From Rhodococcus sp. 105337 (GTDB lineage: Bacteria; Actinomycetota; Actinomycetes; Mycobacteriales; Mycobacteriaceae): a DNA stretch of 64,000 bases. The stretch covers positions 124,001 through 188,000 of the forward strand of contig NZ_JABAGQ010000003.1 of assembly GCF_012844225.1 (NCBI RefSeq), written 5' to 3'. Below the pieces are notes generated by a model that made no database searches, was not told the origin of the DNA, and worked only from the letters and a program-made list of their open reading frames with translations. Each line of letters starts with the position of its first letter. The first letter of the stretch is position 1. Positions 10,239 through 34,929 of the stretch are shown here, piece by piece. The translations under genes were made by a program, and so were the position numbers.

Positions 10239-10359
10239 GGGCGTCAATGTATCCGCGCACGCATGCCCTCACCTCGCTTTCAGCCGGGCCGGGTGTGGAC
10301 CGGCCGACGCCGGGGAACCCTGAGGTTCCGCCCTGCACGATGACGAGCCCGGAGGTTTC

Positions 10360-12194
<1,835 letters not shown>

Positions 12195-19510: not shown

Positions 19511-20393
19511 GCGGCGACCGCACGTCGCACAACTGCTCGGACAGCGACCACAGGCTCGCGGCGACGCCCTGGTCGTGCGACCGCGCGTTGGACTGCACCT
19601 TCCCGGGGTGTCCTCGCATCTCGAACAGGCCGCCGGGCCCGTAGAAACCGCCGGGTTCCGCATCCACGGCGGTCGCGGCGTAGAGGGACGGGAGTGCTCC
19701 CATCGCGGCCGACTGGCCGATGACCGGAGTCACCCACTCGACGAGCTTCCCGTACCGCGACTCGCTCCGGTACTGCAGGTTCGTCGACGAGTAACCCGGG
19801 TGTACCGCAAAGGATTTCACCGGCGATCCGTGCGCGGTGAGCCGTCGCTGCAACTCGTAGGCGAACAGGAGATTCGCCAGCTTCGACTGGCCGTACGCGG
19901 GCCACCGCTCGTAGCGGCGCCGCTCCCAGTTCAGATCGTCCAGATCGATCTTGCCGATCCGGTGCATGGTGCTGCTCACGGTGACGACGCGATCGGTGAT
20001 GCGCCCGAGAAGGAGCATGGTGAGCGCGAAGTGGCCGAGGTGGTTGGTGCCGATCTGCATCTCGAAGCCGTCGGCGGTCCGCCGCTGCGGCACCGCCATG
20101 ACGCCCGCATTGTTGACGAGCACATCGATGGTCGGGTGGGTCGCGGCGAGGTCCGCGGCGAACGCACGCACCGACGACAGGTCGGCGAGGTCCACTTTGC
20201 GCACCTGCGCGTTCGGACCGATGTGCGCGGCCACCTCCTCTCCCTTCGCGACGTCGCGGCACGCCAGCACCACCTGGGCGCCGGCACGCGCGAGCGCCCG
20301 CGCCGTCTCGGCGCCGAGGCCGCTGTTCGCACCGGTCACCACGACCGTGCGGTTGCTCTGATCGGGAATGTCGTTCGCTGTCCATGCCGCCAT
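19497..20393 (-). CDS. short-chain dehydrogenase/reductase (retinol dehydrogenase-like)
   Basis: A 298-residue classical SDR. The cofactor motif TGANSGLG lies near residue 20, then NNAGVMAVPQRRTADGFE, the catalytic serine in VTVSSTMHR, and YGQSKLAN with the Tyr-x3-Lys pair. An arginine in ACRDVAKG after the second strand favours NADPH. The substrate is not identifiable. A close paralogue lies at 34054-34929 (shared AGVMAVP, TADGFEMQ, SKLANL and HPGY segments). It is a single gene on the reverse strand. Confidence 0.88.
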   Translation of the reverse strand: MAAWTANDIPDQSNRTVVVTGANSGLGAETARALARAGAQVVLACRDVAKGEEVAAHIGPNAQVRKVDLADLSSVRAFAADLAATHPTIDVLVNNAGVMAVPQRRTADGFEMQIGTNHLGHFALTMLLLGRITDRVVTVSSTMHRIGKIDLDDLNWERRRYERWPAYGQSKLANLLFAYELQRRLTAHGSPVKSFAVHPGYSSTNLQYRSESRYGKLVEWVTPVIGQSAAMGALPSLYAATAVDAEPGGFYGPGGLFEMRGHPGKVQSNARSHDQGVAASLWSLSEQLCDVRSPLTST

Positions 20394-20552
20394 ACCCCGC
20401 ACACTACGTACGCATCGGAACCGGCAACAGGGCTCGCCGGACTCTCGCCGGACCGAGGCATTCCCTGTCTGCCCCGCGCCTCGTAGAGTGCACCCGGGCG
20501 CGAGTCCCGCAGGGGCACACGGGGGCGCGGACGAAGGGGAGGGGTTGCATCG

Positions 20553-21737
20553 ATGGCGTACCGGAACGGGTCTGCCGACCGCGAGGTCGGCGAGGCACTG
20601 CGGCAGGGAGATCCCGCGGCGACAGCACGGCTGTACGACTTGTACGCGCCCGGATTGTTCGCGTACGCCTGCGGGTTCGTCGACGCATCGACTGCCTCCG
20701 ATGTCGTGCACGACTCGATCTGGATCGCGGTGCGCCGAATCGACGCTCTCCGCGACACCGGCTTGTTGCGGGCGTGGCTCTACGCGATCGTCCGCTCCGA
20801 GTGTGCGCAGCCCGGGCGTGCTGCCGGCACGGTCGGCTTCGTTCCCGCCACCGATCCCGCGGCGCCACCGCTCCGTCCCCAGTTGTACGCGGTCCGCGAC
20901 GCGGTGGGCAGCCTCGGCGCGATCGAACGCGAGGTCCTCGAACTGGCGGTGCGCCATCATTTCACCAACCAGGAGATCGACGCGATCCTCGGATCCGCCG
21001 CCGGAGACGGCCGCCCGTTCGCTCGCGCTCAGCAAGCGGTCGACCTGGCGGTACCGGCCGTTCCGAATGCGACCGGATTGTTCGCGGCCGTGCCGCCCGT
21101 CCCGCTCCCTCGCCGCCTGCGCGACCGTGTGCTCACGGCAACGCCCCTCGACACGGAACTCGCCGACATGGGACGCCGTATCGAACCGTTGAACCGGAAC
21201 GGATTCCCCGTCGCCCGCCGTGGGCGCCGGAAAACGGCAGCGATCGCCGCGGTGGCAGCGGTGCTGGTCCTCGCCGTAGTCGCCGTGGTCGTCCTGCCAG
21301 GTTCGGAACCCGAGGAATTGTCGGCACCACCCTCTCCGACGTCCCGTTCGGTGGATCTTCCCCCGTCCCAGACACCCGTCGTCACGGCCTCTCCCGTAAG
21401 CAGATCCGAGACGCCGACGACGGAACCCCCGATCTCTAGCACCACAGCCGAACCCATCGTCGAGACCACCGTCTACCCCGGTGCCGACGCCGGCGCCGGC
21501 ACGGTGATTCCGGTCGAGGAAAACGTGGTCACCACCTCTGCCCGCACCTCTCCACCCACCTCTCAGCAGGTGTCGGTCACGTCCACAACCCGCGACATCA
21601 CGCGGTACCCGCGGCGGACGAAGCCCCAGGACGACAGTCGCTCGGAGGACAAGGAGCGGGACGAGCGCCCCGCGACCACGCCCCAGCCCACGACGCGCGC
21701 CACGCTCCCGACGACCACGCGGGCAGCGGCCCCCTAG
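20553..21737 (+). CDS. membrane-anchored sigma-70-like protein with Ser/Thr/Pro-rich tail
   Basis: A 394-residue protein. Residues 10-85 resemble sigma region 2 of ECF factors (AARLYDLYAPGLFAYACGFV; AWLYAIVRSE) and 110-165 resemble a degenerate region 4 (IEREVLELAVRHHFTNQEID). A linker ending RRGRRK is followed by one transmembrane helix at about 228-249 and an outside tail of some 145 residues dominated by Ser, Thr, Pro and acidic residues. GAGGGG precedes the ATG. Fusion of a sigma-like module to a membrane anchor suggests either regulated release or a membrane-tied signalling protein. Sigma activity is not proven, since region 4 lacks a clear recognition helix. Confidence 0.7.
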   Translation: MAYRNGSADREVGEALRQGDPAATARLYDLYAPGLFAYACGFVDASTASDVVHDSIWIAVRRIDALRDTGLLRAWLYAIVRSECAQPGRAAGTVGFVPATDPAAPPLRPQLYAVRDAVGSLGAIEREVLELAVRHHFTNQEIDAILGSAAGDGRPFARAQQAVDLAVPAVPNATGLFAAVPPVPLPRRLRDRVLTATPLDTELADMGRRIEPLNRNGFPVARRGRRKTAAIAAVAAVLVLAVVAVVVLPGSEPEELSAPPSPTSRSVDLPPSQTPVVTASPVSRSETPTTEPPISSTTAEPIVETTVYPGADAGAGTVIPVEENVVTTSARTSPPTSQQVSVTSTTRDITRYPRRTKPQDDSRSEDKERDERPATTPQPTTRATLPTTTRAAAP

Positions 21738-21887
21738 CGCACCCGCCGATGCCGGTTGGTGTTCTCGGCGTCGACCGAGGGCCCGGCGACTCGTCGCTGT
21801 CACACGAGCGAGACGCAGCGGACACATCAGGGGCTTACCGTCGCGTCGTCGTCGCCCGTGTTCGCCGGACAGGAAGGAGCCACCGCC

Positions 21888-22610
21888 GTGGCGCCACGTC
21901 GCAGATCGGTGCTTGTCGACCGGCTCCGAGTGGACGTACCCGGACGGCCCCAGGACGCGATCCTCGAGGAGTTGCGGCGCGTGTTTCTCTCGGGCGCAGC
22001 ACCACCGGGCACACCTATACCGGTGGGTGAGGTCGCGGAGATGTTCGGAGTCAGCCGCATCCCCGTCCGCGAGGCACTCAAGACCCTCATCGGTGAAGGA
22101 CTCGTCACCCATCGCCAGAATCACGGGTACACCGTCGCCCAGTTGACGGCCGAGGAACTGCGCGAGTTGTATCTCGTCCGGGAAACACTCGAATCGGCCT
22201 CGCTCGCGGCGGCTGTGCACAACGCCACCCCGGAGGACTACCGGCTCGCCGAGCAATCACACAAAATACTCGAACGCGCAGTGCACGAGCACGACTCGCA
22301 CACCTATCACCGCGAGAGCCGCGTGTTCCACATGACGCTCGCTCGCCCGTCCCGGATGCACCGGCTTCTGCACATGCTCGAATATGCCTGGAACATCACC
22401 GAACCGGTCCAGCCGATGGTGCACGTGAGCGACGCGGAACGTGCCGACCTGCACCACGAACACCAGGCCATGCTCGACGCGTTCCTCGCGCGTGACACCG
22501 AGCAACTGCTCGCGGCCTACGAGCATCACAACCGGCGCCTCGACGCAGCCATCGCGACGCTTGCGGCAGGTGCCGGGCTGCTGCCCGCGGAAGATATACA
22601 GTTCGGGTAA
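21888..22610 (+). CDS. GntR-family transcriptional regulator (FadR subfamily)
   Basis: A 240-residue regulator. The N-terminal winged helix (GEVAEMFGVSRIPVREALKTL) is followed by a FCD helical effector domain with metal-site type residues (ELYLVRETLESASLAAAV; AFLARDTEQLLAAYEHHN). The GTG at 21888 is chosen because AGGAAGGAG lies 8 nt upstream; the longer frame is unlike the family. It sits 65 nt before an NCS1 transporter gene and very likely controls it together with the hydantoin-racemase-like gene. Effectors in such contexts are often hydantoins, allantoin or pyrimidine breakdown products. Confidence 0.87.
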   Translation: MAPRRRSVLVDRLRVDVPGRPQDAILEELRRVFLSGAAPPGTPIPVGEVAEMFGVSRIPVREALKTLIGEGLVTHRQNHGYTVAQLTAEELRELYLVRETLESASLAAAVHNATPEDYRLAEQSHKILERAVHEHDSHTYHRESRVFHMTLARPSRMHRLLHMLEYAWNITEPVQPMVHVSDAERADLHHEHQAMLDAFLARDTEQLLAAYEHHNRRLDAAIATLAAGAGLLPAEDIQFG

Positions 22611-22675: not shown

Positions 22676-24190
22676 ATGACCGAAGTGCTGATACCACGCG
22701 ACGACGCCCCCGTTCCGGGTCCGTCCGCCGCCGATTACGATCCGCGGCTCACCAACGACGACCTGGCACCGCTGAAGAACCAGCGCTGGGGCTCGTACAA
22801 CATCTTCGCGTTCTGGATGTCCGACGTACACAGCGTCGGCGGCTACGTCACGGCCGGGAGCTTGTTCGCATTGGGCCTGGCGAGCTGGCAGGTCCTCGTC
22901 GCCCTCCTGGCGGGCATCACCATCGTCTACTTCTTCTGCAACCTCGTGGCCAAACCGAGCCAGGCCACCGGTGTTCCCTATCCGGTGATCTGCCGCAGTG
23001 TCTTCGGCGTGCTGGGTGCGAACATCCCCGCCATCATCCGCGGACTGATCGCGGTGGCGTGGTACGGGATTCAGACTTTTCTCGCCTCGGCCGCACTCGA
23101 CGTGGTGCTCATCAAGCTGTTTCCCTCGCTCGCCCCGTACGCCGTGGTCGCCGACTACGGGTTCGCCGGGCTGTCCGCTCTCGGCTGGGTCAGCTTCCTC
23201 ACCCTGTGGGTGCTGCAGGCATGCGTGTTCTGGCGCGGCATGGAGTCCATCCGGCGCTTCATCGACTTCTGTGGGCCCGCCGTGTACGTCGTGATGTTCC
23301 TGCTGTGCGGATACCTGATCTCGAAGGCCGGCTGGAGTGCGATCGACCTGACGCTGGGCGATGTCACGCACACCGGCTGGTCGTCGGTGCCGGTCATGCT
23401 CGGCGCAATCGCCCTGGTGGTCTCGTACTTCTCCGGCCCCATGCTGAACTTCGGAGACTTCTCCCGGTACGGCAAGTCGTTCGGCGCCGTCAAGAAGGGC
23501 AACTTCCTCGGCCTCCCCCTCAACTTCCTGGTCTTCTCGCTGCTCGTGGTGATCACCGCGTCGCTGACGCTCCCGGTCTACGGCGAACTGATCACCGACC
23601 CGGTCGAAACCGTCGCCCGTATCGACTCCACCTTCGCTATCGTCCTCGGAGCACTCACCTTCGCGATCGCCACGATCGGCATCAACATCGTCGCGAACTT
23701 CATCTCGCCGGCGTTCGACTTCTCGAATGTCAGCCCGCAGAAGATCAGCTGGCGGGCGGGCGGCATGATCGCCGCGGTCGGTTCGATCCTCATCACCCCG
23801 TGGAATCTGTACAACAACCCGGAGGTCATCCACTACACCCTGGAAACCCTCGGTGCGTTCATCGGCCCGTTGTTCGGCATTCTCATCGCCGACTACTACC
23901 TGGTCCGCAAGCAGAAGGTGATCGTCGACGATCTGTTCACGATGTCCGAGAAGGGGGCCTACTGGTACAGCAAGGGCTACAACCCCGCTGCAGTCGTTGC
24001 CACCGTCGTCGGTGCGGCTGTCGCGATGACCCCGGTGCTGTTCAACAACGCCCCCGGCATGAGCGCCGCTGCGCAGTACAGCTGGTTCATCGGGTGCGGG
24101 CTCGGCTTCGTCGTCTACCACCTGCTCGCGACCCGCACCCGGTGGGCAGTCCGCATCCCCGAGACCGCCCCCGCGCAGGAAGCCGTCTGA
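22676..24190 (+). CDS. NCS1-family nucleobase/allantoin/hydantoin transporter
   Basis: A 504-residue inner-membrane transporter with about 12 transmembrane helices. The opening KNQRWGSYNIFAFWMSDVHS is the conserved N-terminal motif of the NCS1 family (allantoin PucI, cytosine and Mhp1-like proteins). GPMLNFGDFSRYGKSF and IADYYLVRKQK are also family landmarks. It imports a nitrogen heterocycle with a cation. A racemase of the hydantoin type begins 4 nt downstream and a GntR gene lies upstream, so a hydantoin or allantoin-like substrate is most likely. Confidence 0.88.
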   Translation: MTEVLIPRDDAPVPGPSAADYDPRLTNDDLAPLKNQRWGSYNIFAFWMSDVHSVGGYVTAGSLFALGLASWQVLVALLAGITIVYFFCNLVAKPSQATGVPYPVICRSVFGVLGANIPAIIRGLIAVAWYGIQTFLASAALDVVLIKLFPSLAPYAVVADYGFAGLSALGWVSFLTLWVLQACVFWRGMESIRRFIDFCGPAVYVVMFLLCGYLISKAGWSAIDLTLGDVTHTGWSSVPVMLGAIALVVSYFSGPMLNFGDFSRYGKSFGAVKKGNFLGLPLNFLVFSLLVVITASLTLPVYGELITDPVETVARIDSTFAIVLGALTFAIATIGINIVANFISPAFDFSNVSPQKISWRAGGMIAAVGSILITPWNLYNNPEVIHYTLETLGAFIGPLFGILIADYYLVRKQKVIVDDLFTMSEKGAYWYSKGYNPAAVVATVVGAAVAMTPVLFNNAPGMSAAAQYSWFIGCGLGFVVYHLLATRTRWAVRIPETAPAQEAV

Positions 24191-24194
24191 TCGC

Positions 24195-24932
24195 ATGTTC
24201 CTCAAGGTCGTCAACCCGAACACCACGTGGGCGATGACCGCCAAGATCGAGGCGTGTGCCCGGGCCGTCGCAGGCCCGGGCACACGCCTCGAGGCGGTCA
24301 GCCCGGAGATGGGACCGCCGTCGATCGAAAGCCACTACGACGAAGCACTAGCCGTCCCTGGTCTGCTGGCGGAGATCGAGAAGGGAGAGCGCGACGGTGT
24401 CGACGGTTACGTGATCGCCTGCTTCGGCGACCCCGGTCTCGATGCGGCGCGGGAGATCGCGGCCGGACCGGTCGTGGGGATCGCCGAGGCCGCCATGCAC
24501 ACCGCGACCCTTCTGGGCCGGAGCTTCTCGGTCGTCACGACACTGGGCCGCACGACCGGGCGGGCCCGGGACCTCGCCGACCGGTACGGGATGCGCGACT
24601 CGTGCCGGGGTGTACACGCGTGTGAAGTCCCCGTGCTGGCGCTCGACACCGACCCGGACGCTCGCAAGATCGTCACGGAAGCCTGTCTCGACGCGTTGTG
24701 CGCAGACGGATCCGACGTCGTGGTACTCGGCTGCGCGGGGATGGCCGACCTGTGCGCCCAAATCTCTGCCGACCTCGGCGTCCCCGTCGTCGACGGTGTC
24801 ACCGCGGCAACGCTGACGGTGCAGTCGCTGGTCACCATGGGACTCGTCACCGGAGGGAAGCGCGGCGAGTTCGCGCCTCCGCCTCCGAAACGTTATTCCG
24901 GAATGCTGCAGAGCTTCACAACATTCCGGTGA
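24195..24932 (+). CDS. hydantoin racemase-like Asp/Glu racemase superfamily protein
   Basis: A 245-residue cofactor-independent racemase. It has the two catalytic cysteines in IACFGDPG (C76) and VVLGCAGMAD (C180), matching the Cys76/Cys181 pair of known hydantoin racemases. NPNT near the start is also a family mark. It would interconvert D- and L-5-substituted hydantoins. It follows the transporter by 4 nt in one operon. The hydantoinase and carbamoylase that usually complete the pathway are absent here. The 3' end overlaps the converging iclR gene by 17 nt. Confidence 0.85.
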   Translation: MFLKVVNPNTTWAMTAKIEACARAVAGPGTRLEAVSPEMGPPSIESHYDEALAVPGLLAEIEKGERDGVDGYVIACFGDPGLDAAREIAAGPVVGIAEAAMHTATLLGRSFSVVTTLGRTTGRARDLADRYGMRDSCRGVHACEVPVLALDTDPDARKIVTEACLDALCADGSDVVVLGCAGMADLCAQISADLGVPVVDGVTAATLTVQSLVTMGLVTGGKRGEFAPPPPKRYSGMLQSFTTFR

Positions 24933-25668
24933 GGCACCGCGACCCGTCGTGAAGGAATGTCAGCTGGTCGTACTCCGCCGGGGACACGCGCAGCGGTGAC
25001 CCCTGCAAGCAGAGCCCCCCGACCACCTCGGCATCGTGGTTGCGGATCGGCACGGCCAGCGCCGATCGTCCCACGCGGCATTCCTGATTCTCGAACGCGT
25101 GACCGACGAGCCGGGTCCTGGACAGCTCCGATTCGAGAACGTCCGGGTCGCAGACGGTGTATTCGGTCAGTCTGCGGAGTTCGAGACCCACGCTCATCCC
25201 GGGATTGTGGGCGAGCATCACCTTTCCGAGCGCGTTCGAGTGAAGGTTCTTGGCCAGCAGCGCGATACCGACGATCTCGTGGTCGGGGTCCTGATCGACG
25301 AACCGCAGCCTGCCACCGGCGAACGAGGCCACATGCAACCCGAAACGGGTGTGCGAGCGCAACTCCTCGACCGTCTCGTGCAGTGTGGGTGAGGTGTCCG
25401 CCTCCACTGCGGCCCGGGACAGTTCGGCGGTGCGCCGCCCGAGGGCGAAGCCGGACAGGTCGGGTACGCGTACCAGGAAACCCTCGGCAACAAGCAGATT
25501 GAGCATCCGGTAGGCGGTCGTGGGCGCAACATCGGCAAAGTGGGCGATTTCTTTCGCTGTGGCACCCGGTCCGAGATGCGCCACGGCTTCGAGCATTCCC
25601 AGTGCTTTCTGCACAGCCTTGGGCTGCTGCCCACCGAACCCCACTGCGGCGTCGGACTGGGTGGTCAT
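24916..25668 (-). CDS. IclR-family transcriptional regulator
   Basis: A 250-residue regulator. It has an N-terminal helix-turn-helix (ATAKEIAHFADVAPTTAYRML, about 36-56) and an IclR effector domain ending with SALAVPIRNHDAEVVGGLCL. The ATG overlaps the stop of the upstream APC permease gene by 4 nt, so the two are one operon. Repeated TTTCCACTTGG elements upstream of that operon and of the divergent amine dehydrogenase operon are its most likely targets, because known IclR sites are TGGAAA/TTTCCA palindromes. I infer control of amine uptake and oxidation. Confidence 0.87.
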   Translation of the reverse strand: MTTQSDAAVGFGGQQPKAVQKALGMLEAVAHLGPGATAKEIAHFADVAPTTAYRMLNLLVAEGFLVRVPDLSGFALGRRTAELSRAAVEADTSPTLHETVEELRSHTRFGLHVASFAGGRLRFVDQDPDHEIVGIALLAKNLHSNALGKVMLAHNPGMSVGLELRRLTEYTVCDPDVLESELSRTRLVGHAFENQECRVGRSALAVPIRNHDAEVVGGLCLQGSPLRVSPAEYDQLTFLHDGSRCLTGML

Positions 25669-27212
25669 CGCCGGTCTCCCGGCAGCGAATGAGCCGAAAC
25701 GAGTTGCGGTCGTCCGTCGTCGTCGAGTACCAATTCGCCTGCGCCGGGCAGCAGGTCGGTGGTTTCCGGGCTGTCGAAGGCGCCCATCGTCGCCAGCGAC
25801 TCCGGCCGGAGCCGCTTCAGCACGGCCGCCCACACCACGCCGGCCAGTCCGACGACGAGCACGGCGGTCGGTATCCCCCACTGCCCGTCGCTGATCCCGG
25901 AGAGCGTGAGATATCCGAGCAGTCCGGCGCCCACGCAGGCGATACCCACTGCGACCACGGTGGTCGTGCGGGCATCCTCGCCGATACGTCGCAGGAACCT
26001 CAGACACGAGACGGCGAGCAACGTGTAGGCACCGACCACGGCGACCTCGACGAAACCGTCGAACACGATCGAGTCGCCGAGGAAGATCACCAGGTACATC
26101 CACGCGCCGATCACCACCGCGGCGGTGAACACGATCACTGCGACATACGGTGTGCGGAACCGTCGATGGACACGGGACAGGCGTCGAGGAACGGTGCCCT
26201 CGATGCCCATCGCCAGCAACAGCCGCGAACCCGCCTGCGCACATCCCAGGGCGGATGCGAACCAGGAGAAAGTCACTCCGACCTTGACCGCCACCACCAT
26301 CGCGGTGCTCGCTCCCGAGGCAGTGCCCTCGAAATACGCGGCCACGACCACGTCCGCGTGCCCGGTCAGTGCGGCCCATCCGGCGAAGACGAACACCGTT
26401 CCGCACAGGATCGGGGTGACCAGCACTGCCCGGGTCACTGTGATCAGGGGTCGCCTGGCCTCGGCCCCGAAGAACGCCGCGCTCTCGAATCCCGCCATCC
26501 CGAACACCACCATCAGCGCCAGGAACGGCAACGTTGCGGAGGTGCCGGGTGCGACCGAGGAGGTCGGAGTCCCGGAGTCGGTGACCATCAGTGCGCAGAT
26601 GACCACCAGCGAACACAGTTCCACGACGAGGATCGCCCGCGTCGCGAGACGGACACCGCGCACCGCAATGGTCGCGACGACACCTGCGACGAGCACCGCG
26701 CACACCAGCAGCGGTACAGTCCCGGACACGGCACTACCGAGAGCGGTGGCGATTCCCAGCAGGCTCACCGCGGAATTGGCCAGAACCGAAATCGCGATGC
26801 CGAGATAACCGAGCAGCAGGGCCGCGCCCATGGTGAGGGTGGCACGCCGGGGAAGTCCCTGGAACGCAAAGCTGTACAACGACCCCGCGGCAGCGAGCCG
26901 GCGGGTGAACTGGGAGATGCAGAACGCGACCGCGACGACCACCGCGGTGGTGCCGAGGATCGCCGCCAGCCCTGCGACTCCAGGATCGGCGGAAATGATC
27001 CACGAGGCGATGAAGATCATTCCGGTCGCGGGGGCCACCGTCGACAGGGACTGACCGATCAGGTCGATCTGCGAGAGTTGACGTCGGTTCAGCGCCCGCA
27101 GGGGAGAAAACACCGGTGTGACGGCCGGTGCCGTATTCCGGGATCGCGCGATCGCCGCTCCCAGCGCACCACCGATCCGTGACCCACCACCGCCACGCCT
27201 GCCGCTCGCCAC
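25665..27212 (-). CDS. APC-superfamily amino acid/amine permease
   Basis: A permease of about 515 residues with 12 or more predicted membrane helices. Landmarks are LSQIDLIGQSLSTVAPATGM near the start, FVVFGMAGFESAAFFGAEAR-type helix 6 (here MVVFGMAGFESAAFF), and a SWFASALGCAQAGSRLLLAM segment as in amino acid permeases. GGAG lies 5 nt before the GTG at 27212; another GTG is at 27218. It is the first gene of the unit with iclR and faces the methylamine-dehydrogenase-like operon, so an amine or amino acid substrate related to that operon is likely. Confidence 0.85.
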   Translation of the reverse strand: MASGRRGGGGSRIGGALGAAIARSRNTAPAVTPVFSPLRALNRRQLSQIDLIGQSLSTVAPATGMIFIASWIISADPGVAGLAAILGTTAVVVAVAFCISQFTRRLAAAGSLYSFAFQGLPRRATLTMGAALLLGYLGIAISVLANSAVSLLGIATALGSAVSGTVPLLVCAVLVAGVVATIAVRGVRLATRAILVVELCSLVVICALMVTDSGTPTSSVAPGTSATLPFLALMVVFGMAGFESAAFFGAEARRPLITVTRAVLVTPILCGTVFVFAGWAALTGHADVVVAAYFEGTASGASTAMVVAVKVGVTFSWFASALGCAQAGSRLLLAMGIEGTVPRRLSRVHRRFRTPYVAVIVFTAAVVIGAWMYLVIFLGDSIVFDGFVEVAVVGAYTLLAVSCLRFLRRIGEDARTTTVVAVGIACVGAGLLGYLTLSGISDGQWGIPTAVLVVGLAGVVWAAVLKRLRPESLATMGAFDSPETTDLLPGAGELVLDDDGRPQLVSAHSLPGDRR

Positions 27213-27281
27213 GGGCACTCCGATCGTCCGTCGGCCCGTCTTCGGACCCGGGCCACCAGCGGAAACAGTAGAACTCCCGTG

Positions 27282-27575: not shown

Positions 27576-28154
27576 ATGTTGTGGGCGATGGTCGCATCGA
27601 TACTCGGGGGGACGCTCCTGCTCGCGGGCATTCCGAAGCTCCGCGACCGGGACGGGCTTCTGACCGTGGTGAAGGGGTACCGGCTGCTGCCGCACCGAAT
27701 GGAACGTGTGGTGGCGGGTTCGCTGCCGCTCGTCGAGGTTCTGGTGGGAACCGCATTGATCCTCGGGATCGCCGGTGTGTGGGCGGCGTCGGGCGCCGCA
27801 CTGCTGTTCGCCGCCTTCGCGTTCGGGCTGACAGCGAACCTGGCGCGGGGGCGGCGTGATCTCGACTGCGGTTGCTTCGCGTTCTCTGCCCACGAAGTGC
27901 CGAGGATCGGGTGGTTCCGCGCGGCATCGTTCGCCGTCGCCGCACTCGTCCTCGCGGCGACCGGTTCCGCGGAGATCGCTCCGCTCGAGCGACTCATCGG
28001 AGCGGCGAGCGGCCTGCTGGTCGTACTGGCTGTGGTCGCGGTCGTGCAGATCAAAGCCGTCGTGCACGTCGGCCGGCGTCCGGTCGACGACTACCTGACC
28101 TCCGCGTCGATCAAACTCCGCGCTGTGAGCGCCGAGTCGCGGTACGGCTCCTAA
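27576..28154 (+). CDS. mauE: MauE-like methylamine utilisation membrane protein
   Basis: A 192-residue integral membrane protein with four to five helices and the motif DCGCF (C98, C100) between helices. MauE proteins belong to the DoxX/VKOR-like membrane group and, with MauD, are needed to form the many disulfides of the methylamine dehydrogenase small subunit. GAGAGGG precedes the ATG. It is the first gene of an eight-gene operon and its order E-D-A agrees with known mau clusters. Its likely role is electron transfer for disulfide formation or reshuffling on the outer face of the membrane. Confidence 0.85.
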   Translation: MLWAMVASILGGTLLLAGIPKLRDRDGLLTVVKGYRLLPHRMERVVAGSLPLVEVLVGTALILGIAGVWAASGAALLFAAFAFGLTANLARGRRDLDCGCFAFSAHEVPRIGWFRAASFAVAALVLAATGSAEIAPLERLIGAASGLLVVLAVVAVVQIKAVVHVGRRPVDDYLTSASIKLRAVSAESRYGS

Positions 28155-28195
28155 CCCTCTCTTCAGCCCCACCTTGCACAGATAGGACTACTTCG

Positions 28196-28795
28196 ATGAC
28201 AACATTTCTGCTGGTGGCGGTCGTGGTGCTGACCGTCGCGGTCGCACTGCTGTTCCTCATGACCCTCGCGCTCGCACGGGAGATCGGCCGCGTCCAGGTC
28301 CGGCTCGGTCCCCTCGGAGCGAGGATGATGGATACCGGCCCGAAGGTCGAGCAGGCCGGCCCGTCGTTCGCCGGGCTCGTCGATCACGTCGGCCGCTCCG
28401 TGCGGGTGGGCGGGCACCGCGACAAGGCGCAGCTGCTCATGTTCACCGCTCCCAGCTGCAGCACCTGCAAGAGCCTGCTTCCGGGTCTGCGTGCGATGGC
28501 CCGCGCGGAAACGGATCTCGACGTCGTCATCGTCTCGGACGGCACGCCCGAGGAACACCGGGAGTTCTTGGCCGGCAGCAATATCGGCGACGAACTGAGC
28601 TACATCGACGCCCGCGACGTGGGCATCGCCTACCAGGTGGGCACCACACCGTACGGGGTGATCCTCGACGAGCACGGCAAGATCCGCGGTAAAGGCCTGT
28701 GCAACCACATGGCCCAGGTCGAGAGTCTGCTCAACGCTCTCGAGTCCGGCACTCCGTCCCTCCAGCACCTGCATGCGCAGGCGAAGTCTGCCTGA
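28196..28795 (+). CDS. mauD: MauD-like thioredoxin-fold disulfide protein
   Basis: A 199-residue protein. An N-terminal membrane helix (3-26) is followed by a thioredoxin-like domain with the redox motif C88-S-T-C91 in FTAPSCSTCKSLLP and the cis-proline loop VGTTPYGVI. MauD is a membrane-tethered disulfide oxidoreductase that acts on MauA. It follows mauE by 41 nt and precedes the small-subunit gene by 29 nt. Family role is established in methylotrophs; use here is inferred from position and motifs. Confidence 0.87.
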   Translation: MTTFLLVAVVVLTVAVALLFLMTLALAREIGRVQVRLGPLGARMMDTGPKVEQAGPSFAGLVDHVGRSVRVGGHRDKAQLLMFTAPSCSTCKSLLPGLRAMARAETDLDVVIVSDGTPEEHREFLAGSNIGDELSYIDARDVGIAYQVGTTPYGVILDEHGKIRGKGLCNHMAQVESLLNALESGTPSLQHLHAQAKSA

Positions 28796-28824
28796 CCCGT
28801 CCCGAGAGAGAAGGAGCCTATGCC

Positions 28825-29514
28825 ATGGAAGAACACAACATGACCGAGAACCGATATCCGGTCGATGAGGACACCGTCCGCGAACAAGCGGACTGGATGG
28901 CGGGCAAAGGTGGATCCTTCGTCAGCCGCACAGGACGCAAGCTGTCCGAAAGCACCTCGCGCCGTTCGATGCTCAGCAAGATCGGTCGCTGGACAATGGG
29001 TGTCTCGGGTGTCGCGCTGATCAGCTCGCTGCCGGTCACCCGTAGCGCGATGGCACAGGAACTGCCGCCGGAGCCCGCGCCCCCCGAGGTCCCGGATCCG
29101 CAGTTCATCACGTTCGACGGCAAAGATCCGGCGGAGTGCGAGTACTGGCGCTGGTGCAACATGGACGGCACCTCGTGCGCGGCGTGCAACGGCGGCGGTG
29201 TGACCACCTGCGCTCCCGGCAGCCGCCCGGGCGCCGAGTTCTGGGTGGGCTGCTGCACCAACCCGGACACCGGAAAGACCTACCTGATCGCCTATTACGA
29301 CTGCTGTGGCGCACCGTCGTGCTCCAACGCCTTCTGCGGCGAACCCGACATGCAGGCCATCATGTACAACCCCGTCTCCGGCAGCTACGACCAGGAGATC
29401 ATCTGGTGCGTCTCGGACGAGTCCCAGGCGTACACCTGCACGATGGCGCCCATCATCGGCGAGGACTGCCAGACCCGCCCCGCAGCTCGTCCGAAGGTCG
29501 GTGCCGGAGCATGA
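28825..29514 (+). CDS. mauA: methylamine dehydrogenase-type small subunit (TTQ protein)
   Basis: A 229-residue precursor of the quinone-bearing subunit. The long leader has SRRSML, a twin-arginine-like motif, and cleavage is likely near AMAQ (about 78). The mature part has 14 cysteines in the MauA pattern. W140 (in EFWVGCC) and W194 (in IIWCVSDE) match the two tryptophans that form tryptophan tryptophylquinone (Trp57 and Trp108 of Paracoccus), and D114 and D159 match the catalytic aspartates 32 and 76 with conserved spacing. AAGGAG lies 8 nt before the ATG. It should oxidise a primary amine to aldehyde and ammonia outside the membrane. Confidence 0.9.
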   Translation: MEEHNMTENRYPVDEDTVREQADWMAGKGGSFVSRTGRKLSESTSRRSMLSKIGRWTMGVSGVALISSLPVTRSAMAQELPPEPAPPEVPDPQFITFDGKDPAECEYWRWCNMDGTSCAACNGGGVTTCAPGSRPGAEFWVGCCTNPDTGKTYLIAYYDCCGAPSCSNAFCGEPDMQAIMYNPVSGSYDQEIIWCVSDESQAYTCTMAPIIGEDCQTRPAARPKVGAGA

Positions 29515-30824
29515 CATCTCGATCCAGCAAGCGCATTCCCCGTACCGCCGCGATCGCCGTTCCGCTCGCCGCCGCGATCGTTCTCACCGGATGCAGTTCG
29601 GGCGACGACGAAAGTCCCGCCGCCGGCGAGGTCACCTATCCGACCGTGCCTTTCACGACACCCGGTGAGGGCATCGGTCTCGGTAGCGAGGACCAGGAGA
29701 TCGGCTCCACCTTCCCCGAACCGGTGCACGTTTCCGAGATCGAGCCGATCAAGTCGACCGAGTTGCTTGCCGTCGGTGACGGTTACGGTCTCGAGATCGG
29801 CCTCAATGCGCTCGATCCCGTGACCGGCGTCGCGGGAAGCCGTTTCGTCGTGGGCCCGGGCATCTGGGATCCGGTGATCCACGGATTCGTCGGTAATACG
29901 CCCGATGACCCCGCCGTTCTCGCGGCCGAGGTGTGGCGTCCGCGCGGTTCCCGCGGTGCCGCCGACTTCACCGTCAGCACCTATTCGGGCAACCTGCTCG
30001 AGCCGTCGGAAGCCCTCCTCCCCGACTACGCGCGCGTGCACTCACGGCCGGGCTCGAACGCGGTGACCTCGGACGGAAAGTACTTCGTGACCTGGGACGA
30101 CGGCCTCTACGGCGTGCGTGTGGTCGATCTGGAGGCGAAGAAGGAAAGCGGCGCACTGCAGATCATCGGCTGCGGACCGTTCACCTGGATGGTCGGACAC
30201 GAGCTCTACAGCGTCTGCGAAGACACGCGCGAGCTGATCCAGATCTCGATCGACGACGCGGGTGTTCCCACCGAGACCGCGCGGGCCCAGGTCCTGCCCG
30301 ACGATTTCGTCAGCAACCGCACGGTCACCTGGGCCGACGACGCCGACTCGGCACTGCTGGTGGGGGCGAACGGCGACGTGTTCGTCCTCGATTTCTCGAA
30401 CGGTCTCCCGTCGGACCCCGTAACGCCGATCGGCAACGCGGGGCAGGACTCCGGGCGGTTCGCGGGCAATGCCATCAACAACACCGGAACCCGGATCGCA
30501 ATCGAGTACACCGACTCGGTGGTCCACCCCCACTCCGCTCGCGGCGGTGACGTCGTGAAGATCGACCTCTACGACGCAGCCACGTTCGCGCCCGTGAAGA
30601 CCCTCGATCTGGCGACGCTCGGGCTCACCGGCATCTCGAGCATGGCCTTCTCGGTCGACGGCAAGACGCTGTACGTGGTGGGATCCGGCCCGGAGGTGGA
30701 CGGTGAATCCGCGCAGACGATCGTGGGGATCGCCGCCGAGACCGGCGAACAGGTCAGTTCGGTGGAGGTCACGGGAACCGTCGAAGACGTCGGGACACTC
30801 CTGACACCTCAGGTGCTCGAATGA
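29511..30824 (+). CDS. mauB: methylamine dehydrogenase-type large subunit, lipoprotein beta-propeller
   Basis: A 437-residue protein with a lipoprotein signal (AAAIVLTGCSS, lipid cysteine C28) and repeated beta-propeller strands typical of the MauB large subunit. The segment IIGCGPFTW...LYSVCEDT has a cysteine pair at the place of the conserved MauB disulfide. Overall similarity looks distant. It overlaps mauA by 4 nt. The lipid anchor would hold the enzyme on the outside of the cell membrane, unlike the free periplasmic enzyme of Gram-negative methylotrophs. Confidence 0.82.
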   Translation: MTSRSSKRIPRTAAIAVPLAAAIVLTGCSSGDDESPAAGEVTYPTVPFTTPGEGIGLGSEDQEIGSTFPEPVHVSEIEPIKSTELLAVGDGYGLEIGLNALDPVTGVAGSRFVVGPGIWDPVIHGFVGNTPDDPAVLAAEVWRPRGSRGAADFTVSTYSGNLLEPSEALLPDYARVHSRPGSNAVTSDGKYFVTWDDGLYGVRVVDLEAKKESGALQIIGCGPFTWMVGHELYSVCEDTRELIQISIDDAGVPTETARAQVLPDDFVSNRTVTWADDADSALLVGANGDVFVLDFSNGLPSDPVTPIGNAGQDSGRFAGNAINNTGTRIAIEYTDSVVHPHSARGGDVVKIDLYDAATFAPVKTLDLATLGLTGISSMAFSVDGKTLYVVGSGPEVDGESAQTIVGIAAETGEQVSSVEVTGTVEDVGTLLTPQVLE

Positions 30825-32404
30825 CCCGGTCAGGACCCATCCTCGATCGGCGGGGTTTCCTCCGCATCGGCTCCTTCGGAGCCGGTGCGGTGGGCCTCGG
30901 GGTGCTCGGCCTCGGTGCCGCCTCGTGTAGCTCGGAGCAGGCGGAGCCGGCAGCAGCCCTCGACTACATCGCTCCCACCGACCCCGAGATCGCGGCGGCG
31001 GAAGCAGCTCGAGGATGGAACGGGCGCGAGGTCCCTGTCGCACTGACGGCGGCGGTGGCCACCGTGGACCTCGGTGGGCGTCTCGTCGACACGTGGTCGT
31101 ACGGCGGTCGCGCGGTGGCACCCGAACTGCGGGCGAGCGTGCGAGACAAGATGCTCGTGTCGGTGCGCAACGACCTGCCCACGGACACGACTCTGCATTG
31201 GCACGGCATCCGTATTCGCAACGACATGGACGGTGCCGCTCCGGTTACCCAGGACCCGATCGGGACCGGGGGCGACTTCCTGTACGACTTCGTCGTCCCG
31301 GACCCGGGCACCCACTGGTACCACTCGCACAGCGGCCTGCAAGCAGATCGTGGCCTGTTCGGTGCGCTGGTGATCGAGGATCCGGACGACACGTCCGGCG
31401 CCGATGTCGACGCGGTACTCGTTCTCGACGACTGGGTCGACGGACTCGGCACCACTCCCGAGGCCGTCCTGTCCGCGCTCAATCCCGCGATCTCCGGCGG
31501 TCACGGCGGTCACGGGGGCCACGGGGGTGGCGCTGCGGTGGAACACACCGCCGACGAGAGTTCTGCCGCACTGGCACTGGTCTCCGGGGGCCACGGTTCA
31601 TCCGATCCGTTGGGCGGCATGACCCAGCACATCGGATACCCGCTGCACCTGATCAACGGACGGCCGCCGAACGACCCCGAGGTCGTCACGGCTGCACCCG
31701 GCAGCCGCGTGCGGTTGCGGATCGTCAATGCCGCCGCCGAGACGCCGTACCGGTTCGCGGTGGCGGGCCACGAACTGACCGTGATCGCCGCCGACGGCTT
31801 CGACGTCACGCCCACCACCACCGACACCCTCATCATCGGGATGGCGCAGCGGTACGACGTGCTCGTCACGCTGAAGTCTGGTTCGTGGCCGATCGTCGCG
31901 AAAGTCGAGGGCCGGGACGGGTATGCGTCGTCGGTACTGCGTTCGAACGACGCCGCGCCGCTGCCGAACCCCGACGTCGGGGGTTCGATCGCAGAACTCG
32001 GCGGACGTCTGCTTCCCGAGAGCGCACTGCGGCCGGCCGATTCGGTCCGCCTGGAATCTCGTTCGCCCGACAGGGATTACCGGGTGGAGCTGATCCAGGC
32101 CGGGGACCGCTACGTATGGGGTATGGCCGGGCCGGACGCCGGAAAACTGGTGATGCGCGAAGGCGAACGGATCCGCATCACGATGGCGAACAACAGCACG
32201 ATGTGGCACCCGATGCACACGCACGGACACACCTTCGCGGTGCCGGAGTACGGAGGACTCCGGCGCGACACCGTCAACGTGCTCCCCGGCACCGAACTCG
32301 CGATCGAGTTCGATGCCGACAACCCTGGCGAGTGGATGTTCCACTGCCACAATGCCTATCACTTCGAGGCAGGGATGACCGCGAACCTGCGGTACATCCG
32401 ATGA
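30821..32404 (+). CDS. Tat-exported multicopper oxidase in the amine dehydrogenase operon
   Basis: A 527-residue three-domain multicopper oxidase. It has a twin-arginine signal (DRRGFLRIG) and a possible lipobox ending at C36. All copper motifs are present: HWHG (126-129), HWYHSHSG (165-172), HPMHTHGH (463-470) and HCHNAYHFEAGM (508-519), giving type 1 ligands H463, C509, H514 and M519. A His/Gly-rich insertion (GGHGGHGGHGGG) lies between domains. It overlaps mauB by 4 nt. It could take electrons from the cupredoxins and reduce O2, or oxidise the tryptophans during TTQ formation. Neither role is established for this family. Confidence 0.9.
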   Translation: MTRSGPILDRRGFLRIGSFGAGAVGLGVLGLGAASCSSEQAEPAAALDYIAPTDPEIAAAEAARGWNGREVPVALTAAVATVDLGGRLVDTWSYGGRAVAPELRASVRDKMLVSVRNDLPTDTTLHWHGIRIRNDMDGAAPVTQDPIGTGGDFLYDFVVPDPGTHWYHSHSGLQADRGLFGALVIEDPDDTSGADVDAVLVLDDWVDGLGTTPEAVLSALNPAISGGHGGHGGHGGGAAVEHTADESSAALALVSGGHGSSDPLGGMTQHIGYPLHLINGRPPNDPEVVTAAPGSRVRLRIVNAAAETPYRFAVAGHELTVIAADGFDVTPTTTDTLIIGMAQRYDVLVTLKSGSWPIVAKVEGRDGYASSVLRSNDAAPLPNPDVGGSIAELGGRLLPESALRPADSVRLESRSPDRDYRVELIQAGDRYVWGMAGPDAGKLVMREGERIRITMANNSTMWHPMHTHGHTFAVPEYGGLRRDTVNVLPGTELAIEFDADNPGEWMFHCHNAYHFEAGMTANLRYIR

Positions 32405-32414
32405 GAGGACAGCT

Positions 32415-32756
32415 GTGAAGAAACTGATTCCGTTTGCCGTGGCGCTCGCCGCCTCCGCCGTACTGACCGCGTGCGGTTCGTCCGACACCTCGGACGAACC
32501 TGCCGTGGTCATCGACGTGGCGAACATGGCCTATTCGCCCGCCTCGGTCACGATCGAGGCCGGACAGACCGTGCAGTGGCGCTTCGACGACAACGGCCTG
32601 CCCCACGACGTCGCGGGTGACGGTCCGCTCGAAGGCATTCTGCAGAGCGAACTGCTCACCGAGGGCACGTACGAGTACACCTTCGACGATCCGGGCACCT
32701 ACACGTACCACTGCACGCCGCACAAGTCGATGGTCGGCACCGTCATCGTCCAGTAG
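32415..32756 (+). CDS. mauC: amicyanin-like cupredoxin lipoprotein 1
   Basis: A 113-residue lipoprotein (lipobox AVLTACGS, C20) with a small blue copper fold. The copper ligands are H64, C100, H103 and M106. YHCTPHKSM has the short Cys-x2-His-x2-Met loop that defines amicyanin (CTPHPFM in the methylotroph protein). Amicyanin is the natural electron acceptor of methylamine dehydrogenase. It starts with GTG after GAGAGGA, 10 nt after the oxidase gene. It is anchored outside the membrane near the lipoprotein dehydrogenase subunit. Confidence 0.88.
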   Translation: MKKLIPFAVALAASAVLTACGSSDTSDEPAVVIDVANMAYSPASVTIEAGQTVQWRFDDNGLPHDVAGDGPLEGILQSELLTEGTYEYTFDDPGTYTYHCTPHKSMVGTVIVQ

Positions 32757-33154
32757 TGCGGCAGCCGGTAATGCTGCACCACAACCGAATCGGACACTGG
32801 GCGATCACCGCCGGGATCGCCGCAGTGCCCCTGACAGGATGCGCCGTCGCAGACACTCCCGACGCGGTGATCGAGATCAGCAATGTGCAGTTCAGTCCGA
32901 TGGACGCCACGGTCGGAGTCGGCGACACCGTCGAATGGCGGTTCGACGACGGCGGCCTCCTCCACCACGTGGAGTCGCCCGGCGAGTTCGACAGCGGGAT
33001 CACCGGCGACGGCACCTATTCGTACACGTTCGACCGTCCCGGCACCTACACCTATACCTGCTCGATCCACCCGTACATGACCGGAACGGTCACCGTCCGC
33101 CGAGAAACGAGCGGGACTTTCGTACACAGCAACGACTCTGGAGGTTTCCGATGA
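32756..33154 (+). CDS. amicyanin-like cupredoxin lipoprotein 2
   Basis: A 132-residue (127 from ATG 32771) second cupredoxin. It has a lipobox VPLTGC (C29) and copper ligands H71, C102, H105 and M108 in YTCSIHPYM, again the amicyanin loop length. It is clearly related to the gene just upstream (shared FSP, GDTVEWRFDD, and TYSYTFDRPGTYTY-type strands). The GTG at 32756 overlaps the previous stop (TAGTG), favouring coupled translation. The stop overlaps the next gene by 4 nt. Two such carriers in one operon suggest a relay between the dehydrogenase and the multicopper oxidase. Confidence 0.83.
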   Translation: MRQPVMLHHNRIGHWAITAGIAAVPLTGCAVADTPDAVIEISNVQFSPMDATVGVGDTVEWRFDDGGLLHHVESPGEFDSGITGDGTYSYTFDRPGTYTYTCSIHPYMTGTVTVRRETSGTFVHSNDSGGFR

Positions 33155-33987
33155 CCACCGTCCTCACCCACGAACCGATCTCCACCGATCTCCCCGATAT
33201 CCGCCCGACGCTCGCGGGCGCCGTATCCACCACTGCGCGGCTCGGCCTGGCCGCCGGTGCCGCAGTGGCCGGCGCCGGTGCCGCGACGCTCGCGGCACCG
33301 ACGGCGGCGACGGCTCTGACCGCCGCAGTCGTCGGCGCCGGGCTCGTCACCTCGCTCGCGGCGAACTGGTCAACCTGCGGAATGTCCGTGGCCGGTGTCG
33401 TCGCGGCCCCGAAACAGCCCGGCCGCAAAGGAGCATCGACCCCGCTCCGACGACTGGGCTGGCACGCGCTCGGATCGGTAAGCACCGGTGCCGTCACCGG
33501 CGCCGTCCTCGGTGCACTCGGTTCGGTCACGGCGGCGAACCTGTCCCCGTTGTGGTTGCTGTTCGGATGGGCCGTGTTCGCGCTGGCCTACGGCTTGCAC
33601 GAGATCGGCGTCGTGTCGATGCCTGCTCCGATGCGACGGCAGCAGTTGCCCCGGCACCTGCGGCGGACCATGTCTCCGTGGAAGGTGTCGCTGCTGTTCG
33701 GCGCGATCATCGGCCCCGGATTCCTGATCTTCATCCGGTCCAGCGCGTACTACCTGCTCGTGCTCGGTGTGCTCGCCGTCGGGTCGCCCGCCCTCGGCGC
33801 CGCGATGTTCACCGTCGTGTCCCTCGGCCGGTGCATGCCGAGTGTCGCAGCGATCGCGCACACCCGTCGCGGTGGCTCGATGCCGGGCTTCCTGTCGGTG
33901 ATGTGTGTCGTCGACCGCCGCGTGCAGGCCGTGACGGGTGCCGCCCTGGTGGGCCTCGCCGCGTTCGCCGCGATCTCGCTGATCTGA
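33151..33987 (+). CDS. polytopic membrane protein, possibly MauF-like
   Basis: A 278-residue membrane protein with about six to seven predicted helices, several rich in Ala and Gly, and conserved-looking cysteines in NWSTCGMSVAG, SLGRCMPS and VMCVVD. Its place at the end of a mau-type operon, size and topology fit MauF, a membrane protein needed for methylamine dehydrogenase maturation. I cannot confirm homology from sequence memory alone. GGAGG lies 6 nt before the ATG, which overlaps the cupredoxin stop. A strong hairpin follows. Confidence 0.6.
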   Translation: MTTVLTHEPISTDLPDIRPTLAGAVSTTARLGLAAGAAVAGAGAATLAAPTAATALTAAVVGAGLVTSLAANWSTCGMSVAGVVAAPKQPGRKGASTPLRRLGWHALGSVSTGAVTGAVLGALGSVTAANLSPLWLLFGWAVFALAYGLHEIGVVSMPAPMRRQQLPRHLRRTMSPWKVSLLFGAIIGPGFLIFIRSSAYYLLVLGVLAVGSPALGAAMFTVVSLGRCMPSVAAIAHTRRGGSMPGFLSVMCVVDRRVQAVTGAALVGLAAFAAISLI

Positions 33988-34053: not shown

Positions 34054-34929
34054 TCAGAGACCGAACTGCACACCCGTGACGCGCTCGGACAGCTCCCACA
34101 GCCGGCGTGCCGCCTCGGGATCGCGAGCCCGCGCGGAGCAGCCCGCGGTGTGCGGCGACCCGTAGAGTTCGAGAAAACCGTCGGGACCGATGTAGCCGCC
34201 TCGCAGTCCCGGCTCGGTGGCGGCGTAGAGCACGGATTCGGCGCCCTGCTCCGGGGTCCGCTGCAGAATCTTCTTGCCGAACCCGAAGAGCCGGTCGAAC
34301 CAGGTGCCGGTGTGGCTTCCGACCTCGGTGGCCGCATATCCCGGATGTGCGGCGAGCGACCTGACCGTTGATCCGCTCGCGTCGAGTCGCCGAGCCAGTT
34401 CGAAACTGAACATCAGGTTTGCGAGCTTCGACTGGGCGTACGCGGCAGCGCGGTGGTACCGCCGCTGCTCCCAGTTCGGATCGTCCAGATCGACGCGCCC
34501 GAGGCGATGCGCGGCGCTGGAGACGGTCACCACCCGATCCGTGACCATGTCCAGCACCAGTCCGGTCAACGCGAAGTGCCCGAAGTAGTTGGTGCCCATT
34601 TGCATCTCGAATCCGTCGGCGGTCCGCTGCAGCGGTACGGCCATCACACCGGCGTTGTTGATGAGCACGTCGATCGTCTCGTGGGTGTCCCGCAAGCCGC
34701 ACGCGAACTTGCGCACCGAGGCCAGTTCGGACAGGTCCAATCGGTGCACCGACGCCCTCGGGCCTATCGTCTCGGCGACGCGCGCACCTTTGTCCACGTT
34801 GCGGCACGCCAGGACGACGTTGGCGCCGGCAGCACCGAGCGCTATGGCCGTCGCCTCCCCCACGCCGCCGGTCGGACCGGTCACCACGAAGGTCCGGCCC
34901 ACCTGCGACGTGGACGCGTCAGGCGCCAA
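34054..34929 (-). CDS. short-chain dehydrogenase/reductase
   Basis: A classical SDR of about 291 residues with TGPTGGVG (cofactor loop), NNAGVMAVPLQRTADGFE, VTVSSAAHR and YAQSKLAN. It is a paralogue of the SDR at 19497-20393. The cofactor motif has a Pro-Thr-Gly-Gly in place of the usual Ala/Ser-Ser-Gly-Ile. The frame opens with a TTG overlapping the mycolyltransferase stop by 11 nt. A GTG at 34902 is the alternative. The two genes form one transcript. Substrate unknown. Confidence 0.83.
   Translation of the reverse strand: MAPDASTSQVGRTFVVTGPTGGVGEATAIALGAAGANVVLACRNVDKGARVAETIGPRASVHRLDLSELASVRKFACGLRDTHETIDVLINNAGVMAVPLQRTADGFEMQMGTNYFGHFALTGLVLDMVTDRVVTVSSAAHRLGRVDLDDPNWEQRRYHRAAAYAQSKLANLMFSFELARRLDASGSTVRSLAAHPGYAATEVGSHTGTWFDRLFGFGKKILQRTPEQGAESVLYAATEPGLRGGYIGPDGFLELYGSPHTAGCSARARDPEAARRLWELSERVTGVQFGL

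Follow-up and report, generated by a model that had tools for sequence, protein, structure and literature searches.

A probable TTQ amine dehydrogenase operon in Rhodococcus

How would a Rhodococcus complete the tryptophan tryptophylquinone (TTQ) cofactor of an amine dehydrogenase without MauG, and where would the enzyme deliver its electrons? These questions are raised by eight plus-strand genes in the order mauE-D-A-B-MCO-cup1-cup2-mauF (MCO, multicopper oxidase; cup, cupredoxin), located at positions 27576-33987 of a stretch of 64,000 nucleotides (the window) from Rhodococcus sp. 105337, whose genome comprises 4.46 Mb on 34 contigs. One passage of PMC8292978 places methylamine dehydrogenase (MADH) in Gram-negative bacteria and methylamine oxidase in Gram-positive ones. 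A search of titles and the beginnings of abstracts, with most of the subscription literature outside its reach, found no paper on a TTQ enzyme in Rhodococcus. The original prediction, made from the letters of the window, had named eight co-directional genes, and their identities were confirmed by profiles, alignments, the predicted fold of MauB and, for MauF, hhalign. By its sequence, the operon very probably encodes a TTQ amine dehydrogenase. To the whole proposal, an extracytoplasmic module of Rhodococcus and some relatives with the MCO as the most likely electron sink and with TTQ completed without MauG, we give about even chances.

MauA passes the cut-off of the TTQ small-subunit family PF02975 (Table 1). 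Its residues W140, W194, D114 and D159, which we take to be equivalent to Trp57, Trp108, Asp32 and Asp76 in MADH numbering, stand on invariant columns of an alignment with the MADH of Paracoccus denitrificans PD1222 (locus L038) and the proteobacterial TTQ loci L039-L041 and L043, and alignments to the small subunits of MADH and aromatic amine dehydrogenase (AADH) in the PDB matched the same four residues. The patterns around W140, D114 and D159 were present in all 36 relatives and that around W194 in 35, the miss (L032) lying on a 3-kb contig. Thus, the claim that MauA carries both TTQ tryptophans and both catalytic aspartates holds, since these residues align with MADH and AADH and are kept across relatives. 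All 14 cysteines of the window protein lie beyond the leader, and 35 of the 36 relatives likewise have 14 there; for the MADH small subunit, a section of PMC7876137 describes six disulfides. By alignment, C143 and C215 are the two additional cysteines of MauA; they are kept in the actinobacterial relatives, missing in five proteobacterial sequences, and may form a seventh disulfide. At W194, MauA reads IIW, like MADH, where the PDB alignment of AADH has VNW; this hints at an MADH-like pocket and does not fix the substrate. Against the NCBIfam model TIGR02659, MauA scored 119.4 bits, below the cut-off of 196.85 (P. denitrificans control: 399). In plasmid records, proteobacterial relatives are called 'methylamine dehydrogenase light chain'.

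MauB matched neither TIGR02658 nor PF06433, the family of the classical heavy chain, for which the P. denitrificans controls gave 678.4 and 701.2 bits. PF06433 was above its cut-off in none of 394 genomes of the class, with one match below it (genome G171). AADH heavy chains came out on top of a PDB profile search, yet with just E 0.14, and comparing profiles yielded 75.3% for MauB of P. denitrificans and 26.8% for a large subunit of AADH type. Since the identity of MauB was not reached from sequence alone, it was decided by the predicted fold: an AlphaFold2 model from 31 sequences, with a predicted local distance difference test (pLDDT) score of 80.8, matched the MADH heavy chain by Foldseek and by VIA-align and thus has the fold of the large subunit. 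The structures listed by Foldseek include those of the ternary complex (2mta, 2gc4).

MauA bears a twin-arginine leader, as had been proposed, and the clean lipoboxes on MauB, cup1 and cup2 of the window bear out the view that these three are lipoproteins. In the relatives, a lipobox was detected in 35/36 MauB, 27/33 MCO, 33/34 cup1 and 26/34 cup2 sequences; the lipobox and twin-arginine patterns were loose, and some of the lipobox misses are failures of the pattern or of the start codon. Of the accessory proteins, MauE passes its Pfam cut-off and shares 46% identity over 81 aa with MauE of P. denitrificans, MauD lies slightly under its NCBIfam cut-off (Table 1) with 44% identity to the P. denitrificans protein, and MauF aligns with P. 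denitrificans MauF in hhalign (98.9%, E 3.6e-17). A mauF gene was found in 33 of the 36 relatives, the remaining three (L032, L035 and L036) being short contigs. Mean column identity of MauF is 78% (28 sequences), and its invariant WSTCGMS corresponds to WSPCGYS of P. denitrificans MauF. A MauF model (pLDDT 81.2) gave no fold match in the PDB at E <=0.001; the match to CcdA (E 0.81, probability 0.35) carries no weight.

Distribution of the module

The scan of named genomes yielded 36 loci: 25 in Rhodococcus (one labelled R. hoagii), three in Nocardia, two each in Prescottella and Dietzia, and single ones in Actinacidiphila, Microbacterium, Kineococcus and Planctomonas. The closest named relative of the window MauA is that of Rhodococcus coprophilus (98%, L002). 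The search for the gene order that the original prediction had suggested was carried out, and the complete eight-gene order was present at 30 of the 36 loci. Of the other six, three are short contigs (L032, L035 and L036), two have a single cupredoxin (L030 and L034, the latter also lacking the MCO), and in L033 mauF stands between mauA and mauB. In Kineococcus (L033, 7610-14193) it is a shorter mauF-like open reading frame (ORF; 9891-10478) that occupies this internal position, not the end of the operon. Planctomonas deserti (L034, 7725-12308) carries a minimal mauE-D-A-B-cupredoxin-mauF, for which MCO, MauG and the permease described below were not found; it lends itself naturally to testing the requirements of TTQ formation.

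Within the genus, PF02975 was above its cut-off in 13 of 18 genomes, and within the family as defined by GTDB in 44 of 321, representing 6 of its 31 genera; the family scan gave 2 additional matches below the cut-off. An even draw of the order gave 3/397, and in the draws of the class (394) and phylum (396) the own genome was the only one. In these large draws about 11-13 first-look candidates were scored per genome, so that misses are possible. Besides the PF06433 match in G171, sub-cut-off matches were seen in genomes G809 and G1322; that in G329 is an out-of-frame stretch in an unrelated region and was dismissed as chance. This pattern fits a module that is frequent among genera akin to Rhodococcus and scattered outside them; it may have spread by transfer.

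Copper proteins and the path of the electrons

The MCO consists of three multicopper-oxidase domains, and its type 1, 2 and 3 copper ligands are intact. HWHG, HSH and HPMHxHGH were found in 33/33 relatives and HCHNxYHxxAGM in 32/33 by the strict pattern; the sole miss, L025, reads HCHNAYHFETGM, and the copper motif is intact there. Cys36 is invariant in an alignment of 13 sequences and the window MCO has a twin-arginine motif. An MCO gene is present in 35 of the 36 genomes with mauA: 33 have it at the locus, the contig of L032 ends within it, and L035 has it on another contig. A short CxxHxxM ligand loop is a hallmark of amicyanin; this loop is present in cup1 of 34/34 relatives, and the cup2 loop likewise in 34/34 matches. 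In L030, L034 and L036 the names cup1 and cup2 both match one ORF, and two distinct cupredoxin ORFs were found in 31 of the 36 relatives. The best PDB matches of cup1 were plastocyanin and amicyanin chains, and the amicyanin model TIGR02657 (cut-off 110.2) was not reached by cup1 (54.7 bits) or cup2 (37.1 bits).

Cytochromes c were searched for in 7 of the 37 genomes (own, Planctomonas, R. ruber, Actinacidiphila, Kineococcus, Microbacterium and Nocardia fusca). PF00034 and PF13442 matched one locus only in each of the seven, with two adjacent haem domains, presumably the QcrC subunit expected for the actinobacterial bcc complex; in the own genome the matches lie on a different contig from the operon. 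A separate soluble cytochrome c was not found in these genomes by the two families, other c-type families being outside the search. With a single two-haem cytochrome, two exits from the cupredoxins are evident, the MCO of the operon and the bcc-aa3 supercomplex. We favour the MCO as the main electron sink, at odds close to even. Classical MADH supplies the respiratory chain via amicyanin and cytochrome c, and by this precedent the same TTQ dehydrogenase could conserve energy by sending its electrons from the cupredoxins to the two-haem cytochrome of bcc-aa3, the MCO being secondary. A possible acceptor is indeed encoded in each of the seven genomes and the Planctomonas module does without an MCO, but a secondary role is hard to square with an MCO gene that lies between mauB and the cupredoxins and occurs in 35/36 mauA genomes; we consider this route possible but rather unlikely.

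Less probable again is that the MCO handles copper, as a cuprous oxidase or otherwise, and so protects the cupredoxins or supplies them with the metal. Its best NCBIfam neighbour is CopA, and a His-rich loop (HGGHGGHGG) is present, both as expected for such a role, but the CopA score of 239.5 bits is below the cut-off of 478.95 and laccases score highest in the PDB. Furthermore, no copper pump or regulator is prominent at the loci, where every neighbour family besides the permease and the regulator described below (as ORF clusters, unannotated) occurs at 16 of the 36 at most. We regard a copper-handling MCO as improbable.

TTQ maturation without MauG

MauG completes TTQ in classical MADH. The MauG family PF03150 was found neither in the own genome (0/1) nor in those of the relatives (0/36), contigs below 3 kb being outside the search, the genomes being of unstated completeness and two of them being metagenome bins; MauG of P. 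denitrificans, as control, scored 153.5 bits. Since MauG was not found, TTQ is made by another route or not made, and the conservation of the residues and of the accessory genes speaks for the former. On these grounds we think it likely that TTQ is completed without MauG.

Could the MCO take the place of MauG and provide the oxidising equivalents for the second hydroxylation, the cross-link and the oxidation of quinol to quinone? The counts, with MauG in 0/36 and MCO in 35/36 genomes, would fit, but Planctomonas shows neither protein and still has both TTQ tryptophans. If the enzyme works there, TTQ can form without either, an argument against a maturase role of the MCO and in favour of its being one of the two candidate electron sinks; the argument comes from a single genome, whose module could be decaying. 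Moreover, neither mauG nor an MCO was seen at three TTQ loci from proteobacteria that are of a different type (Cupriavidus, Novosphingobium and Paracoccus sp. SMMA_5 plasmids), the annotation of which is incomplete. The potentials of MCOs are usually below about 1 V. The oxidation of tryptophan requires about 1 V according to a passage of PMC6405878, which exceeds these potentials and further makes the MCO a quite improbable substitute for MauG.

Permease, regulator and neighbouring genes

The module is larger than first reported, because a divergent APC permease gene and an IclR gene upstream of mauE belong to it. The start of the IclR gene overlaps the stop of the permease gene (ATGA). A tblastn match to the IclR gene precedes the module in 30 of the 36 relatives, weak in one of them (L031, 37% over 138 aa); the permease was found in 30 by ORF clustering and in 29 by tblastn at E 1e-10. 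Six loci are without the pair: in L003, L032, L035 and L036 the contig stops too near mauE, and in Kineococcus (L033) and Planctomonas (L034) the 7.6-7.7 kb upstream of mauE contained no match to either gene. The permease had no sequence match in the PDB at E 0.01 and its NCBIfam matches were all far under cut-off; with matches this weak, the type of permease gives no clue to the substrate.

Within the operon, mauA/mauB, mauB/MCO and cup2/mauF overlap by 4 bases, and downstream of mauA most neighbours overlap slightly. A scan for promoters and terminators gave no sites and is uninformative for DNA of high G+C content.

Table 1. Genes of the module and their positions in the window. For scoring against Pfam and NCBIfam, mauD, mauB and mauF were taken with starts a few codons 5' of those listed.
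Gene and product	Position	Strand	Basis
IclR-type regulator	24916..25668	-	Pfam PF01614 56 bits, PF09339 42.1 bits
APC-superfamily permease	25665..27218	-	Pfam PF00324 40 bits, cut-off 24.6; reads away from mauE
mauE, MauE/DoxX-kind membrane protein	27576..28154	+	PF07291 81.8 bits
mauD, thioredoxin-like, CSTC motif	28196..28795	+	TIGR02661 171.6 bits, cut-off 188.6
mauA homologue, candidate TTQ small subunit	28825..29514	+	PF02975 109.3 bits, cut-off 25
mauB-like large subunit, beta-propeller lipoprotein, lipobox LTGC	29511..30824	+	AlphaFold2 model, Foldseek, VIA-align
MCO, three-domain, twin-arginine leader, Cys36	30821..32404	+	PF07732, PF00394, PF07731
cup1, amicyanin-like lipoprotein cupredoxin, short CxxHxxM loop	32415..32756	+	PF00127 52.3 bits
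cup2, second amicyanin-like lipoprotein cupredoxin	32756..33154	+	PF00127 31 bits
mauF, polytopic membrane protein	33151..33987	+	hhalign vs P. denitrificans MauF

On the far side of the IclR gene, an NCS1-type permease gene (PF02133, 317 bits) and a second gene, whose product presumably resembles Asp/Glu/hydantoin racemases, occupy 22676-24932. The pair adjoins the module in L002, L005 and L012 as well and possibly serves the use of hydantoin or allantoin. A short-chain-dehydrogenase-like ORF (34054-34929, minus strand) lies 3' of the operon, and a similar sequence is found within the minus-strand ORF 19497-22256; high-identity copies stand by the module in L002, L003 and L012 only.

Proposed mechanism

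We propose that MauA, which bears a twin-arginine leader, and MauB, a lipoprotein, make up the catalytic complex outside the membrane. MauE, MauD and MauF would assist MauA in folding with its many disulfides and in acquiring TTQ, the completion of which would proceed without MauG. TTQ would then oxidise a primary amine, giving an aldehyde and ammonia, and pass the electrons to the two lipid-anchored amicyanin-like cupredoxins; from these they would most likely reach the MCO, which would reduce O2 to water. The gene content, the residues, the predicted MauB fold, the conserved layout and the negative searches for MauG and a separate cytochrome c, on which this proposal draws, are direct results of the tools used. 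The idea of a TTQ-type actinobacterial amine dehydrogenase outside the membrane thus gained from sequence, predicted fold and conserved neighbourhood; what the original prediction overlooked is that no MauG-family gene was found in the 37 genomes and no separate cytochrome c of PF00034 or PF13442 in the seven, and that the permease and IclR genes belong to the module.

Several findings weigh against the proposal. MauA and MauB are below the curated MADH cut-offs. In Planctomonas deserti an MCO was found neither at the locus nor in the genome (profile A4), so the MCO appears dispensable, and R. ruber has another MCO of this kind elsewhere in its genome (profile A4, 496 bits), so this type of MCO is not bound to the module alone. 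As no further neighbour family (unannotated ORF clusters) exceeds 16 of the 36 loci, a gene for the use of the aldehyde is not evident, and a permease next to a surface enzyme is unexplained.

More tentatively, and on balance unlikely, the module could be a self-contained surface chain from TTQ over cupredoxin and MCO to O2 that bypasses the respiratory chain and finishes TTQ without MauG by copper chemistry; the finishing step may be due to the MCO itself or to an autocatalytic copper step aided by MauE, MauD and MauF. That the complex is no amine dehydrogenase at all, its tryptophans being unmodified and its propeller fold used otherwise, would agree with the scores below the MADH-specific cut-offs but is very improbable in view of the conserved W140, W194, D114 and D159 and of mauD, mauE and mauF.

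Comparison with known systems

With the mau cluster of P. denitrificans, the module shares mauE, mauD, mauA, mauF, the fold of MauB and a cupredoxin of amicyanin type as well as the TTQ tryptophans, the aspartates and IIW at the second TTQ tryptophan. Unlike that cluster, which is ordered mauF-B-E-D-A-amicyanin-J-G, the Rhodococcus module has neither mauG nor mauJ and instead has the MCO and a second cupredoxin. Further differences are the lipoboxes on the large subunit and the cupredoxins, the two extra cysteines of MauA and a large subunit that escapes PF06433; since MauA and MauB are below the curated cut-offs, the module is not an MADH by these cut-offs. The locus on a Cupriavidus pinatubonensis plasmid (L039), which we assigned to the AADH type, shares the TTQ small subunit, the propeller large subunit, mauE and mauD, and mauG is not among its annotated neighbours either. 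In contrast to the Rhodococcus module, cytochromes c adjoin the small subunit in the AADH-type loci L039 and L043 and a hypothetical gene does so in L041, L039 and L043 gave no BLAST match to the Rhodococcus mauF or cupredoxins, and the large subunit of L039 is recognised by PF06433 (112 bits). Three-domain MCOs of the laccase/CopA type share the type 1, 2 and 3 copper motifs and the three cupredoxin domains with the MCO of the operon, which differs from them in lying within an amine dehydrogenase operon and under the CopA cut-off.

The TTQ family as such is known. From the compared clusters the module differs in that MauG is missing (relative to MADH), in having an MCO, a second cupredoxin, lipid anchors and the APC/IclR pair, and in the divergence of its large subunit. 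An intact TTQ module in a soil genus crosses the split between Gram-negative and Gram-positive bacteria drawn in the passage of PMC8292978. Since MauG was found in no checked genome, the strains are a natural system for MauG-free TTQ formation, a question that arises also for the AADH-type loci. If the MCO is the sink, a TTQ enzyme would reach O2 via copper proteins alone, which may be of use for the sensing or detoxification of amines.

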